A DNA stretch of 64,000 nucleotides from an uncultured Bacteroidia bacterium (GTDB lineage Bacteria > Bacteroidota > Bacteroidia > NS11-12g > UBA9320): assembly GCA_943787465.1 (NCBI GenBank), contig CALSMN010000004.1, forward strand, positions 124,001 through 188,000, given 5' to 3'. Numbering within the stretch: the first letter of the stretch is position 1; the number at the start of each line of letters is the position of its first letter. Made by a program: the position numbers and the translations under genes. This document shows positions 5,807-16,240 of this stretch, in pieces. The notes beneath the pieces are model-generated. The model was not told the DNA's origin, searched no databases, and was given only the letters and a program-made list of their open reading frames with translations.

Positions 5807-6911
5807 AATACCAATTTGAATAACTCGTAATTATTTTATCCCAAGTTAAATCACGCACTTTCAACATAGCTGCATCAGCCAATTTACGGACCCTTATTGG
5901 ATTTTCAACCAACTGATAAAGTTGATCTTTAAAATCGGCATACCCTGCACAAAAAATAGCTTCTTCATTGGCTTCAAAAATGCCATTAATTGAGTACTTG
6001 TGATACGCAATAATTGCATTATGTGTTGCTGCTGCTTCGAGATACACTAACCCAAATGTCTCTTTAGTGGAAGGCATCACAAAGATGTTGCTACCCATTA
6101 AGATATTCAGGACTTCTTGGTGAGGAATGTGACCTAAAAATTGAATCCGATCATCATCTTCTTTTAAGGCTTTTAATTGATTTTCTAGAGGGCCTTTACC
6201 CACAATTTGTAATGCTATGTTACTATTCCCTTTATAAGACTTCACCGCATTAATTACCCAATCAATCTGTTTAAGGGATATAAATTCTGCAACGCATGTA
6301 ATTTGACATAAATCATCAGAATAATCGCAATTTAGTTGATGAGGCAGATCAATACCATGAGGAATAACTCGATAAGGAATATTGAGTTTTTCTTGAATTA
6401 GATTTCCTGTATACGTATTGAGTACATGCACAGAACTAGCATTTATCAAACAAGACTTTGCTTTTCTGAATGTATCTGATGATTCAGAAACTGAGTCTAG
6501 CAGCGCAATATCTGAATATCGAACACTTACAACGTAAGGTATCCCCATTTCTTTAGAAGTTTCTTGTGCAATCAATCCATCGGGGAACAAAAAATGAGCA
6601 TGGATCAAATCATATTTTTTTGTACTAGCAAGAGCCAATTTGAACCATTTAATGAATATAAACGCCATTGACTTTATGGGTAGTCTCAAATAGTTGAAAA
6701 CTCGAATATTTTTTGATCCCTGCTTAAAATCGTTGAGGCGGAAGAGGGGTTTAAATTTGAGTTTGTTGCGAAGCCAAAAGGGTATGATCTCTTTGGGGAA
6801 AATCACATCCACTTCATGATTTACAGAGAGTAGATTTGCAATACGAAGTATAACTGCATTACTTTTTCGCTTAGGCGATGGAATATTGCTAGCTATAAAT
6901 AGTATTTTCAT
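5793..6911 (-). CDS. Family 4 glycosyltransferase
   Basis: A 372-residue GT4 (GT-B fold) enzyme. The N-terminus MKILFIASNIPSP is typical. The C-terminal donor domain carries VGKGPLENQLKAL and the E-x7-E-like region KETFGLVYLEAAA. The ATG at 6911 is preceded by a TATATTTG box 16 bases upstream. It is the first gene of a two-gene unit with the GT2 gene. Its place next to a flippase suggests polysaccharide or glycolipid synthesis on the cytoplasmic face of the inner membrane. Confidence 0.9.
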   Translation of the reverse strand: MKILFIASNIPSPKRKSNAVILRIANLLSVNHEVDVIFPKEIIPFWLRNKLKFKPLFRLNDFKQGSKNIRVFNYLRLPIKSMAFIFIKWFKLALASTKKYDLIHAHFLFPDGLIAQETSKEMGIPYVVSVRYSDIALLDSVSESSDTFRKAKSCLINASSVHVLNTYTGNLIQEKLNIPYRVIPHGIDLPHQLNCDYSDDLCQITCVAEFISLKQIDWVINAVKSYKGNSNIALQIVGKGPLENQLKALKEDDDRIQFLGHIPHQEVLNILMGSNIFVMPSTKETFGLVYLEAAATHNAIIAYHKYSINGIFEANEEAIFCAGYADFKDQLYQLVENPIRVRKLADAAMLKVRDLTWDKIITSYSNWYYEQG

Positions 6912-6927
6912 ATCTATTATTCAAAAT

Positions 6928-6935
6928 CAAATATA
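6928..6935 (-). promoter_or_regulatory. -7 promoter box TATATTTG for the GT4-GT2 unit
   Basis: Exact TAnnTTTG match on the minus strand, 16 bases before the ATG at 6911. Confidence 0.5.
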
Positions 6936-7008
6936 GTATTTTAAACAAGGGTACCACGGCTGTAAAAATAATTCACCCAAATCATTTAAGCATTCCAGCT
7001 TAAAAAAA

Positions 7009-7016
7009 TAAATTTG
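7009..7016 (+). promoter_or_regulatory. -7 promoter box TAAATTTG for the CTG-started glycosyltransferase
   Basis: Exact TAnnTTTG match. Transcription would begin a few bases after 7016, past the ATG at 7018, which argues that this ATG is not the translation start of the next gene. The CTG at 7040 lies 23 bases downstream of the box. Confidence 0.45.
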
Positions 7017-7039
7017 TATGCATAACAATCTTAAGTCAT

Positions 7040-8326
7040 CTGAAAAAGATACTCATACTTTCTTATTATTGGCCTCCAGATAACAGTTCTGGTGTTCAAC
7101 GTTGGGTCTATTTTGCTCACTATTTAGCCAACCTAGGCCTAGAGATTGAAGTAATAACCGTAGATCCCAGATGGGCCTCTTACAAAAATAAAGATGCAAG
7201 TTTTACCAATCTTGTGGAGAACATTGAAGTCCATACTACAAAAACACTTGAACCATTAAAACTATACTCCTATATGACTACTGGAAATTCTAGTGCAGGC
7301 ATTCCTCGAGGGGGTATTAATGATGAAGGAAATAGTTTCAAAAAATTAGCCCACTATGTGAAAGCTAATTATTTTATTCCAGATGCTCGCATAGGTTGGA
7401 ATAGATTTGCCCTCCAAAAAGCAAAAAAAATAATCACTGAACCGGATAACACAATCATAATATCCACTGGACCGCCACATTCTACCCATCTTATCGGATA
7501 TCAATTGAAGTGTTTGTATCAAGGTTTAACATGGGTCTGTGATTTCAGAGATCCATGGTTAGAGCTCTATTCCAATATGAATGCCCCTCAAAATTCAAGG
7601 TCAAAGAAAAAGAATAAACATCTTGAACAAAAAGTTCTGCAACATGCTGATCAGGTCATTACTGTTGGGCCTTCCCTAGTTAGACTACTCCAAACTAAAT
7701 TACCTATATCTAAAATGGAGAAAGTGACCTATTTTTATAATGGTTTTGATGCGGCCAAAATGAATCAAATCCCGGCAGAAAATCCACGAGATTTTGTAAT
7801 CACTTTTATTGGTCTCATCCCCGAAGATTACCAAGTCGAAGGATTTATTTTTGCTTTACAAAAATTTAGTGCAGTCATTGATTCAAGACCCGTAGTACTG
7901 AGGTTGGCAGGCAACATCGTACCCTCATTTATTCATCAATTGAATCAAATATCATCCATTACTGTGGATTATAAAGGTTTTGTCTCGCACAATGACAGTC
8001 TAAAACTTATGAAAAGTGCTTCCTTACTTTTCACGATTCTTCCTACCCAAAAATTTGATGAAATTATCATTTCAGGCAAAATGATGGAATACATCGCTAG
8101 TCGAAAACCTATTTTGTGTATAGGAAATAAAATGGGAGATGCTGCAAAACTCATTGATAAAACACAATCTGGCTTTACCTTTTCTTCGGACGAAGTAGAC
8201 CCTATGAGTCACTTTATAACCACCTGTTATAAACAGGAGTTTAAAGTGTCAGAAACCATTCCAATCCAAAATTATTCAAGAGAGTCTATTACTAAAAAAC
8301 TATACCACTTCTTAAAAGGATTATAG
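7040..8326 (+). CDS. GT4-like glycosyltransferase with apparent CTG start
   Basis: The frame stays open upstream of the first standard start (GTG at 7214) as far as a TAA at 7001. From CTG at 7040 it reads MKKILILSYYWPPDNSSG, a textbook GT4 N-terminus, followed by a VQRWVYFAHYLANLG helix; a GTG start would delete this first strand and loop. The resulting protein has about 428 residues. The C-terminal half contains ITFIGLIP, and KMMEYIASRKPILCIG matches the donor-binding E-x-x motif region. The only nearby ATG (7018) is one frame off and ends at the TAA at about 7081. The alternative is a one-base indel in the A5 run at 7043-7047. The gene is probably part of the polysaccharide cluster. Confidence 0.78.
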   Translation: MKKILILSYYWPPDNSSGVQRWVYFAHYLANLGLEIEVITVDPRWASYKNKDASFTNLVENIEVHTTKTLEPLKLYSYMTTGNSSAGIPRGGINDEGNSFKKLAHYVKANYFIPDARIGWNRFALQKAKKIITEPDNTIIISTGPPHSTHLIGYQLKCLYQGLTWVCDFRDPWLELYSNMNAPQNSRSKKKNKHLEQKVLQHADQVITVGPSLVRLLQTKLPISKMEKVTYFYNGFDAAKMNQIPAENPRDFVITFIGLIPEDYQVEGFIFALQKFSAVIDSRPVVLRLAGNIVPSFIHQLNQISSITVDYKGFVSHNDSLKLMKSASLLFTILPTQKFDEIIISGKMMEYIASRKPILCIGNKMGDAAKLIDKTQSGFTFSSDEVDPMSHFITTCYKQEFKVSETIPIQNYSRESITKKLYHFLKGL

Positions 8327-8364
8327 ATCTTATTAAATTATGTGATAACTCTCCAAACTAATTC

Positions 8365-8372
8365 TATTTTTG
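8365..8372 (+). promoter_or_regulatory. -7 promoter box TATTTTTG for the YfhO-like gene
   Basis: Exact TAnnTTTG match 17 bases before the ATG at 8390. It supports that start over the GTG at 8342. Confidence 0.45.
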
Positions 8373-8389
8373 AGGTCAATTCAGAATAT

Positions 8390-10840
8390 ATGAAAGTTTT
8401 TATTCAAAAATATAGACAACACCTCATTTCAATAGTCATTATTGGTATATTATCTGCTTTGTTTGTTCCTAGCAATTTTAAAAACAAAGCTCCAAGACAA
8501 AATGATATTGTTGAGTATAGAGGAGCGGCAAGTGAGATTAAGGAATATCAAAAGTCTGGCGAACAAATTCTTTGGACAAACGCATTATTTGCTGGTATGC
8601 CTTCCTATGTGATCAGTTTGCAAAATTCAGCAACAATTATCAAATACCTAAAGTTTCCAGGCTATCCACGTGTTTGGTCTCAAATATTCTTATACATCTT
8701 ATGTAGTTTTATCATGTTACTTGCTTTTAAAGTAAGGCCTTGGCTTGCATTAATTGGAGCCATTGGCATGGGATTAGCCACAGAAAATCTGACTATCCTT
8801 GCCGTTGGTCATAACACGAAAGCTAGAGCAATTGGCTACCTACCTCTTGTCATTGCTGGATTACAATATATTTTCACTAACAAAAAACTACTAGGGCTCA
8901 CTCTCTTATCTGCAGGATTTGGACTTGAGTTACAAGCCAACCACGTACAAATTACCTACTACGGAGGATTTATGGTCATTTTATTCATAATCTTCCAATT
9001 CTACCCTTATTTCAAAGAAAAAAAAATAAAGGAATACCTCATTGCCTGCTTTATTGCACTAGCTGGTGCGGGTATTGGATTGGGAGCTAATAGCTTAAAT
9101 ATTTTACTACTGAAAGAATATGCATCTGAGTCTATTCGAGGTAAAAGCGAACTCACAATAACTAAAAATAAAACAGAAAATACTGACAAAAGTGATGGAC
9201 TTACTCAAGATTATGTTTTCTCATACAGCAATGGCTGGTCGGATATTGGAGCTACTATAATCCCTAATTATAGTGGAGGTGACTCTGACAAGTTAAGGCT
9301 GTATTACGGTCAGATTGGAAGTACCTCAGGACCTAAGTATATAGGAGCGAGTCTATTTGTATTGATGGTATTAGGGTTTGTGCTGATCGATGGTGCCCGA
9401 AAGTGGTGGCTATTATCGGTCATGGCAATCACGCTAATTTTATCCATGGGAGGAAATCATTTTACTGGAATCAATGAATTTATGTACAACCATTTCCCTT
9501 TGTATAATAAATTTAGAGCTCCAAGTATGATGATGGTATTGGTTCAGATAAGTGTAGGTCTATTTGCTATATTGGGAGTTGAAAAAGTCCTCCGTGATCC
9601 TAAATATGTAAAAGAAAAATGGAATGCTATGAAGTATGCAGCTTTCACAGCAATCGGTATCATGGTATTACTCTCGTATTCCGGAACGTTATTAAACGAT
9701 TTTAATTCTACTCCTAAAGAAGATGACAACGGACAAACGCTATATGACGCAGATACAGAATATGCTAAAAATATCATACAAAGTCAAGGAGGTGAAATAA
9801 ACCAACTGAATATTGATCAGGTTAAAGATCAATTAGCTGAAATGCGAATTGATAAAATGAAAAAAGACGGGAATCGCAGTCTATTTTTTGGTTTATCTGT
9901 GTTGCTTATTCTTTGGTTGATCTACACAGAAAAAATAAAAAATGCATATGGTTTGGTTGTTTTGGGACTATTAATCACAGCCGATCTTTGGATGGTTGGT
10001 AAACGCTACTTAAATGATAAAGATTTCAAAAAAGAATTAGCATTAGAACAGCCTTTTACTCCATATCAGGCTGATTTAATGATCCAAAAAGATACATCCT
10101 ATTATCGCGTCTTAGACCTAACTCAAAGTATTTTAAATAGCAATAGATGCGCCTACTTTCACAAATCTATAGGAGGGTATAGTGCTGCTAAAATTCGAAG
10201 ATTCCAAGACCTATGGGATTGGCATCTAACAGCGGATTTGCAAGCTGGAAAAGTCACTGGTAACCCAATATTAAATATGTTGAATATGAAATATTTTATT
10301 TATCCAGTTCAACAACAAGGGATCCCCCCTCAATATCAAAATAATCTGGATGCACTGGGCAATGCATGGATTGTTCCTGAAATTTCTGTGGTCGAAAATG
10401 CAGATAGTGCTCTTCTTCAATTAGGGAAAATAGATACCAAGACACAAGGTGTTGTTGAAAAAGAGCATGCTCATCTTATAGCTAAAAAACCTGAAGTAGA
10501 TCGTGAAGCCTCCATCACTTTAACATCTTACCATCCAGAAAAATTGGTCTATTCCTACAACTCAACCACCGAAAATAATGTAGCATTTTCTGAGGTATAC
10601 TACAAAAAAGGGTGGAATGCTTATATCGATGATCTACCTGTAGAGCATTTCAGAATGAATTATATCCTAAGAGGATTGAAGGTGCCTAAAGGAAAACATA
10701 CCATTCGATTTGAATTTTCCCCTGAAACCTATCAGGTAGGATCTATACTCTCCATGACATTTGGTAGTATTATTTATGTATTGATTGGAATATCTCTTTT
10801 TGTTTTCATTCGAAAAGAATTAAGGGATTCCAAAGATTAA
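8390..10840 (+). CDS. YfhO-family membrane protein
   Basis: A large polytopic inner-membrane protein of about 816 residues, with many hydrophobic helices in the first 480 residues, two or more in the middle and one at the C-terminus. The last 250 residues include a periplasmic domain ending in an FSEVYYKKGWNAYIDD segment, typical of the YfhO family. YfhO proteins are linked to glycosylation of lipoteichoic acid or surface polymers in Firmicutes; the Bacteroidota role is undefined. A GTG at 8342 would add 16 residues, but ATG at 8390 gives MKVFIQKYRQH directly before the first helix and fits the promoter box. It follows the glycosyltransferase gene closely. Confidence 0.85.
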   Translation: MKVFIQKYRQHLISIVIIGILSALFVPSNFKNKAPRQNDIVEYRGAASEIKEYQKSGEQILWTNALFAGMPSYVISLQNSATIIKYLKFPGYPRVWSQIFLYILCSFIMLLAFKVRPWLALIGAIGMGLATENLTILAVGHNTKARAIGYLPLVIAGLQYIFTNKKLLGLTLLSAGFGLELQANHVQITYYGGFMVILFIIFQFYPYFKEKKIKEYLIACFIALAGAGIGLGANSLNILLLKEYASESIRGKSELTITKNKTENTDKSDGLTQDYVFSYSNGWSDIGATIIPNYSGGDSDKLRLYYGQIGSTSGPKYIGASLFVLMVLGFVLIDGARKWWLLSVMAITLILSMGGNHFTGINEFMYNHFPLYNKFRAPSMMMVLVQISVGLFAILGVEKVLRDPKYVKEKWNAMKYAAFTAIGIMVLLSYSGTLLNDFNSTPKEDDNGQTLYDADTEYAKNIIQSQGGEINQLNIDQVKDQLAEMRIDKMKKDGNRSLFFGLSVLLILWLIYTEKIKNAYGLVVLGLLITADLWMVGKRYLNDKDFKKELALEQPFTPYQADLMIQKDTSYYRVLDLTQSILNSNRCAYFHKSIGGYSAAKIRRFQDLWDWHLTADLQAGKVTGNPILNMLNMKYFIYPVQQQGIPPQYQNNLDALGNAWIVPEISVVENADSALLQLGKIDTKTQGVVEKEHAHLIAKKPEVDREASITLTSYHPEKLVYSYNSTTENNVAFSEVYYKKGWNAYIDDLPVEHFRMNYILRGLKVPKGKHTIRFEFSPETYQVGSILSMTFGSIIYVLIGISLFVFIRKELRDSKD

Positions 10841-15194: not shown

Positions 15195-16001
15195 TTAACT
15201 AAGAAGACTAAAAGCTATTCCGATAATTCCAATAATCCAACAATAGTATGCGAAATAGGAAAGCTTACTTTTTTTAACAATTGCGATCATCCATTTACAA
15301 GCAAATACCCCCGCAATCAAAGCAGATAAAAATCCGGCTATTAAGGGGATATCGATAATGAATGATGATGGCTGAGCTAGACCCTGATTTGAAAAATCTA
15401 AAATTTCTTTGGCCATTGCTCCAAAAATTAATGGCAATACCATCAGAAAACTAAATCGAGCAGCTTTCTCTCTTTGTATGCCCAATAAAACCGCAATAGC
15501 TATGGTACTTCCACTTCTACTAATTCCAGGTAAAATAGCTACAGCTTGAGTTATCCCTAATAAAATGGCACTATTCATATTGATATCTTTGGTTTGGGTT
15601 AAAAGTCTATCCGAGACATATAATAAAAAACCAGTTAAAAGAAGCATGATACTGACTAGTGTAACATTCCCACTATATAAGCCATCAATTTTATCCTTTA
15701 GAAGAACCCCTACTGCCGCTGCAGGCAACATAGAAATTAGTATTAATAATGAAAATTTCGTTTCTGGGTTCCATTTAAATTTGAATATTCCACTTAAAAT
15801 AGAAATGATGTCATTTCTGAAAACAACAATTGTGCTCAAAGCAGTAGCAAAGTGAAGTATAACAGTAAATAGAAGACCAGCTTCACTTTCGTGAATGTTA
15901 AAAATAGCTTTACCCAGTTCTATATGACCGCTACTACTTACGGGTAAAAATTCCGTGAGCCCTTGCACTAACCCTAAAACAATGGACTCCCACAGGCTCA
16001 T
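15195..16001 (-). CDS. uppP: Undecaprenyl-diphosphatase UppP/BacA
   Basis: A 268-residue inner-membrane phosphatase that recycles undecaprenyl pyrophosphate for peptidoglycan and polysaccharide synthesis. Signature motifs are GLTEFLPVSSSGH (residues about 14-26) and GISRSGSTIA (about 157-166), with about eight hydrophobic helices. Its ATG overlaps the stop of the upstream DUF3098 gene by one base. This DUF3098-uppP pairing is common in the phylum, where ftsX often precedes; ftsX is absent here. Confidence 0.97.
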   Translation of the reverse strand: MSLWESIVLGLVQGLTEFLPVSSSGHIELGKAIFNIHESEAGLLFTVILHFATALSTIVVFRNDIISILSGIFKFKWNPETKFSLLILISMLPAAAVGVLLKDKIDGLYSGNVTLVSIMLLLTGFLLYVSDRLLTQTKDINMNSAILLGITQAVAILPGISRSGSTIAIAVLLGIQREKAARFSFLMVLPLIFGAMAKEILDFSNQGLAQPSSFIIDIPLIAGFLSALIAGVFACKWMIAIVKKSKLSYFAYYCWIIGIIGIAFSLLS

Positions 16002-16240
16002 TATTTCTGAGTAGGTTTTTTCATTATTGCAAAAATTTCAATAATAAACCCAATAATAACTACTACTGGGGCCAAAGTTATTTTTCTAAAGTCATAGATA
16101 TCTTCTTTGCCATACATGAGTACAAAGCCAGTAATAATAACGAGCAATCCAATCAACATCCAGAGGTAGTTTGATTTTCCAAAAACAAATTGATTGGTAG
16201 GTATTTTTGTCTCTTTATTCATTTTCTTTATATCAGCCAT
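16001..16240 (-). CDS. DUF3098 family small membrane protein
   Basis: A 79-residue protein with a short polar N-terminus (MADIKKMNKETKIP) and two hydrophobic helices (about residues 28-47 and 57-72). This matches DUF3098, found mainly between ftsX and uppP in Bacteroidota. The function is unknown; the neighbourhood suggests envelope or division work. It overlaps uppP by one base, so the two are translated together. Confidence 0.85.
   Translation of the reverse strand: MADIKKMNKETKIPTNQFVFGKSNYLWMLIGLLVIITGFVLMYGKEDIYDFRKITLAPVVVIIGFIIEIFAIMKKPTQK

Follow-up and report, generated by a model that had tools for sequence, protein, structure and literature searches.

The 64,000-nucleotide stretch of DNA analyzed here (the window), from an uncultured Bacteroidia bacterium, contains a glycosyltransferase gene with no ATG, GTG or TTG in the region where its homologs begin. 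The best supported explanation is that translation begins at CTG 7040 behind a short leader; judging from sequence comparisons, it has about an even chance of being correct. The missing canonical start is more than a chance feature, this gene being the sole case among the 105 distinct loci listed. In the proposed mechanism, transcription would proceed from a promoter with the −7 box TAAATTTG and yield a transcript with a leader of about 19 nt. An ancestral ATG two codons 5′ of the CTG would have been lost on the window lineage, most simply via substitution, and the ribosome would now initiate weakly at CTG 7040. An ordinary initiator tRNA would read the CTG as fMet, giving a product that begins MKKILILSYYWPP. 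CTG starts of this sort are uncommon, but precedents exist.

The glycosyltransferase and its open frame

The protein read from CTG 7040 scores 35.3 bits against PF13439 (cut-off 28.5) and falls just below the cut-off for PF13692 (25.6 of 27 bits). The best fold matches of its AlphaFold2 model (pLDDT 90, pTM 0.88) are GT-B-type glycosyltransferases, with 7qsg_A as the best Foldseek match in the PDB (E 1.6e-14, TMq 0.61) and methylmannose polysaccharide mannosyltransferase, BshA and MshA among the best PDB fold matches; a profile search of PDB sequences gave no match at E 0.01. On its family profile and predicted fold, the protein is a GT4 glycosyltransferase of the GT-B type. Neighboring genes encode other glycosyltransferases, a methyltransferase, a PF01943 membrane protein and a YfhO-type membrane protein. 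Like GT4 glycosyltransferases generally (PF13439/PF13692), the window gene combines a predicted GT-B fold with a YYWPP...GVQRW N-terminus and a polysaccharide-type locus with glycosyltransferases and a YfhO-type protein; it differs from them only in its start codon, with the PF13692 score marginally sub-threshold.

The frame follows a TAA at 7001–7003 and is open from 7004 to 8326 on the forward strand without an internal stop, and its first ATG, GTG or TTG is GTG 7214; the sequence-only reading had its coordinates right. From CTG 7040 there are 428 codons free of stops and frameshifts. The CTG is followed by AAAAAG, with an A5 run at 7043–7047, and the sequence after it is KKILILSYYWPPDNSSGVQRW. 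ATA 7022 and ATC 7028 are both in frame with the CTG, the ATC four codons upstream of it. Reading the sequence also bears out the earlier statement that ATG 7018 is out of frame and one base past TAAATTTG, the intervening base being T 7017. A start at GTG 7214 had been said to remove the first strand of the GT-B fold. In the AlphaFold2 model, the region before residue 59 holds a strand (residues 3–7), a helix (17–31) and a further strand (35–41), and the predicted loss thus takes in the helix and second strand as well; 13 of the 39 columns that are invariant across 28 aligned proteins also lie before residue 59.

Frames lacking a nearby canonical start were sought across the window, where 37 of the 59 open frames with 90 or more codons had a relative in the fetched stretches. 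Five of these 37 were flagged, the glycosyltransferase gene among them. Three of the five overlap longer opposite-strand frames of the same frame table and were taken for shadows. Twelve codons into a flagged frame on the reverse strand (15195–16037), an ATG opens a normal-looking protein (MSLWESIVLGLVQG) that we take to be UppP.

Table 1. Features of the glycosyltransferase gene and its upstream region (positions within the window).
Feature	Position	Strand	Basis or remark
TAAATTTG, probable −7 box of the Bacteroidota housekeeping sigma factor	7009..7016	+	Conserved spacing in six relatives
ATG in another frame	7018..7020	+	21 codons, then TAA; probably upstream of the transcript
Putative 5′ leader, 19 nt	7021..7039	+	Transcription start 5 nt past the box, by F. 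psychrophilum placement
AGT	7034..7036	+	Place of the ATG in six box-sharing relatives; alignment ungapped from box to YYWPP for those rows
CTG, probable start codon	7040..7042	+	Aligned with M of MKKIL/MKRIL starts (L006, L002, others)
N-terminus expected from a CTG start: (M)KKILILSYYWPP			
GT4-type glycosyltransferase, 428 aa, predicted GT-B fold	7040..8326	+	PF13439, AlphaFold2, fold matches
GTG, first canonical in-frame start codon (residue 59), not taken as the start	7214..7216	+	Losses of fold and conservation

Start codons in homologous loci and CUG initiation

Homologous start regions were compared across 111 loci, 31 of them from genome searches (matches in 40 of 58 genomes, of which up to 30 loci were taken) and the remaining 80 drawn from GTDB contigs as the best of 581. 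Dropping six duplicates (L032, L033, L034, L054, L071 and L082) left 105 distinct loci, window gene included. The start stretch was defined as 6–16 codons before YYWPP, having been widened from 6–14 after L066 and L095 were seen, in which the ATG lies slightly farther upstream than 14 codons; L056, L070 and L073 have ATG starts. Among the matches listed, 104 of the 105 distinct loci carry ATG, GTG or TTG in this stretch, and the sole exception is the window gene. ATG is present in 42 of the 104 and GTG or TTG only in 62. The 62 loci may be set beside a combined share of 18% for GUG and UUG among natural starts (PMC11497404, partial text), although ours are candidate codons rather than annotated starts, which makes the comparison a loose one. 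One homolog (L030, G033:C2) has GTG, followed by an assembly frameshift directly after YYWPP.

That CTG 7040 encodes the N-terminus, as the sequence-only reading proposed, is the best supported reading, the codon falling on the M of MKKIL-type N-termini. The alignment of orthologous starts for which it had called bears this out in part: the nearest canonical codon lies exactly at the CTG place in 25 of the 104 loci among the matches listed (an ATG in L006 and L002), with the proviso that the canonical codon nearest YYWPP is not always the true start, whereas the two closest relatives among those matches (L003 and L004, 68% identical) use an ATG two codons 5′ of that place. The CTG itself is not kept: among the matches listed, an in-frame CTG occurs in the start stretch of one of the 104 other loci and at the exact place in none, and all 104 have ATG, TTG or GTG in the stretch. 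ATA, ATC or ATT also occurs there in 38 of the 104 listed loci (ATC 4, ATA 15, ATT 27), so that little can be read into the occurrence of ATA 7022 and ATC 7028 as such.

CUG accounts for 0.024% of bacterial initiation codons, and its output in E. coli is 0.86% of that of AUG (PMC11497404, partial text). At that frequency, an estimated 2000 or so genes would give about half a CUG start per genome, so that finding one is not astonishing. Reconstructed switches from AUG to CUG starts number 2 of 61,358, and isolated switches are known (PMC5622118). In a mycobacterial selection, CTG stood at 0.03% and was not enriched, and ATT was enriched at 9.8% (PMC4633059, partial text). Flavobacterium johnsoniae has no Shine-Dalgarno sequences, and A at −3 and −6 favors initiation (PMC6847099, partial text); CTG 7040 has C at −3 and A at −6. 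A literature search on CTG starts in Bacteroidetes led to a single phage paper, whose partial text mentions one CTG ORF, a predicted one; nothing relevant appeared among the matches listed for Bacteroides ribosome profiling with CTG, and the literature search found no CUG-started bacterial glycosyltransferase. The window gene resembles bacterial CUG-start genes in its conserved frame, in having no usable ATG, GTG or TTG near the homologous N-terminus and in the position of its CTG on the homologous initiator Met; it differs from them in that no listed homologous locus of the 104 has CTG at that place and in that the start is here read from sequence alone.

A tRNA survey of the genome gave 31 matches, of which 30 loci were fetched and scanned. 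There are two tRNA-Met (CAT) genes, and one (L156) is initiator-like by eye, with a GGG/CCC anticodon stem and an unpaired C1-A72. A sequence pattern for the initiator tRNA had no matches in the genome, whose gene differs from the pattern. Discrimination against CUG is loosened when the G-C pairs in the anticodon stem of the initiator tRNA are altered, the M1 variant being an example (PMC11497404, partial text); a CUG-permissive tRNA of this type was rejected because L156 keeps three G-C pairs. The infC gene (IF3) was rejected as a further unusual start in the genome, since TTG occupies the conserved position of the start in all 16 loci (L130–L145; 16 of 19 genus genomes matched). In E. coli, infC starts with ATT.

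Probable promoter box, putative leader and evolution of the N-terminal stretch

Six relatives (L003, L004, L018, L019, L020 and L022) carry TAAATTTG with an ATG 17 nt past the box and 47 nt between box and YYWPP. The window gene has the same spacings but AGT where these relatives have ATG. The six amount to three or four distinct sequences, L003 equaling L004 and L018 equaling L022 in the stretch, with L019 and L020 close to one another. An exact TAAATTTG occurs no more than 80 nt before YYWPP in 9 of the 104 loci among the matches listed; L005, L021 and L091, which hold it at 64, 38 and 63 nt, were left out of the count and the alignment. The equal spacing argues against a net loss or gain of one base in the A5 run, and this competing explanation from the sequence-only reading is weakened accordingly.

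A Bacteroidota housekeeping promoter includes a −33 box, and none that was clear could be seen by eye upstream of TAAATTTG. The motif TAnnTTTG occurs 103 times in the window, no more often than chance would have it (94.0 ± 8.8 expected), and the promoter call therefore rests on conservation in relatives; a sigma-70 scan is ill-suited to this phylum. The region resembles the Bacteroidota housekeeping promoter (PMC9723704, partial text) in TAAATTTG and in its spacing to the start region, the same in six relatives, and differs in showing no clear −33 element by eye and in having a start site that is here predicted. In F. psychrophilum, the TAnnTTTG box lies at −12 to −5, the median leader length is 24 nt and leaderless mRNAs make up 5.5% of the total (PMC9723704, partial text). 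By this placement, the transcript would begin at about 7021, ATG 7018 would sit at −3 to −1 and so probably be untranscribed, as had been supposed, and 19 nt would lead to the CTG; the corresponding leader to the ATG in the six relatives would be 13 nt. The leader region has no stable fold beyond that of shuffled sequences (z 0.45).

Within the region 6900–10840, the place upstream of the YfhO-type gene is occupied in relatives by glycosyltransferases that are 68% (L003, L004) or 32–33% (L018–L020, L022) identical to the window protein. The same box and spacing despite 32–68% identity suggest that the gene body has been exchanged while its place stayed fixed. Among relatives, the divergent neighbor varies as well.

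Over codons 2–58, the window gene differs from L003 at 10, 7 and 28 first, second and third codon positions (10, 7 and 29 from L004), and over the rest of the gene at 105, 62 and 197 (107, 62 and 197). Identity to L003/L004 is 43 of 57 residues in codons 2–58 versus 247 of 370 in the rest. Changes private to the window gene in codons 2–58 fall on third positions in 12 of 18, 13 of 20, 9 of 15, 13 of 19 and 10 of 13 cases with L005, L006, L007, L010 and L011 as outgroups. This preponderance of third-position changes, window-private ones included, indicates that what precedes GTG 7214 was evolving as protein-coding sequence on the window lineage too, making GTG 7214 unlikely as the start.

The branch to the window gene measures 0.31, compared with about 0.20–0.22 for L003/L004. 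Whole-gene relative-rate tests gave χ2 values of 0.27, 3.76, 1.65, 2.08 and 0.02 with the five outgroups, none significant at 5%; over its whole length, the window gene has more private amino-acid changes than L004 when any of four of the five outgroups is used. Second-position changes number 37 in the window gene versus 12 in L004 with outgroup L006, and 27–30 versus 20–24 with the other four. Within codons 2–58, the ratio of private amino-acid changes, window to L004, is 3:5, 5:1, 6:0, 6:0 and 2:4. Departures from otherwise invariant columns come to 4 in the window gene, 4, 3 and 4 in L005, L006 and L007, and 55 in the distant L011 (rows with a near-identical mate score 0–1 by construction). 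The longer branch and accompanying counts would fit a recent loss of expression as well as they would a weak start.

Weighing the candidate starts

Several lines of evidence favor initiation at the CTG: the canonical codon in 104 of 105 listed loci, at the CTG place itself in 25 of 104, together with the rarity of CTG elsewhere (one of 104, and none at the place); the coding-type evolution of the N-terminal stretch; the long stop-free frame; and the documented if rare use of CUG as a start (PMC11497404, partial text). Against it count the rarity and weakness of CUG (same partial text), its lack of enrichment in mycobacteria (PMC4633059, partial text), the absence of CTG at that place in all 104 listed homologs, the C at −3, the ordinary initiator tRNA and the somewhat longer branch. 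The private-change counts tell in favor of the CTG; that the promoter comparison comes down to fewer distinct sequences tells against it.

It is unlikely, if still a reading to be taken seriously, that a recent loss of the ATG has left the gene with little or no expression, as a pseudogene with a still undecayed frame. The mildly longer branch agrees with silencing, as does the weakness of CUG (PMC11497404, partial text). The same genome holds a glycosyltransferase paralog, about 35% identical (L002; G000:C5:31960-33147), with an ATG start, an in-frame TAA at codon 125 and an otherwise open frame. To judge by that TAA, loss of such genes seems to occur in this genome. However, the window gene runs for 428 codons without a stop or frameshift, its relative-rate tests are non-significant at 5% (χ2 at most 3.76), its private changes in codons 2–58 are mainly third-position and its departures from invariant columns are on par with those of L005, L006 and L007, all of which may leave room for a very recent loss. 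Another near-cognate codon, ATC 7028 or ATA 7022, alone or mixed with the CTG, is improbable as the main start. Both are in frame, and the ATC lies within the family range of start positions, but the ATA would have almost no leader on a transcript beginning near 7021, and ATA, ATC or ATT is also found there in 38 of 104 listed relatives that have canonical codons. CUG is moreover said, from work by Hecht in 2017, to be the strongest near-cognate start in E. coli. Set against this, ATT can outperform CTG in mycobacteria (PMC4633059, partial text).

There is also little likelihood that a sequence or assembly error, whether one substitution or two compensating indels, masks a canonical start. The gene is known from a single assembly; no second genome of the species was found in the searched genomes, GTDB contigs or viral contigs, collections that hold one genome per species or may omit near records and so give weak evidence of absence. 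Yet the assembly comprises 10 contigs at 99.54% completeness and 0.04% contamination, none of the window's genes was found to be split with respect to relatives' frames (289 frames of at least 150 codons, 77 matching the window), the unchanged box spacing does not fit a single indel, and AGT and ATG differ at two bases. Two compensating indels near the old ATG would also keep the spacing, the letters being alike for these and for two substitutions. Translation from ATG 7018, with the A5 run off by one base or slipped over, is very improbable: the product would have SSEK before ILIL, which by eye resembles the DSKK of L004, but the ATG follows the box by one base, where the F. psychrophilum placement would put it at −3 to −1, and box and YYWPP are 47 nt apart in the six aligned relatives as in the window gene. 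A single indel in the run was rejected on the unchanged spacing. We hold initiation at GTG 7214, which would yield a protein of 370 aa, to be scarcely credible; this is the first canonical codon and the choice of an ATG/GTG/TTG-only gene caller, but it was rejected on the predicted loss of two strands and a helix, on the 13 of 39 invariant columns and on the coding-type evolution of the preceding region.

If the CTG is the start, its weakness could be given a regulatory meaning, in which surface-polysaccharide glycosyltransferases drift to ever weaker starts in a lineage without Shine-Dalgarno sequences and a CUG 19 nt past a fixed promoter is a deliberate low-output dial. This interpretation draws on the 62 of the 104 listed homologous loci whose start stretch offers GTG or TTG and no ATG, and we think it quite improbable. 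Gene callers restricted to ATG, GTG and TTG would shorten this enzyme by 58 residues, its first strand among them. If the CTG is used, nature would have provided a clean test of the way CUG is handled by ribosomes of the Bacteroidota, whose initiation does not depend on Shine-Dalgarno pairing, because relatives keep the same box and spacing with ATG. If it is unused, the gene would show the loss of a start codon prior to the decay of the frame.
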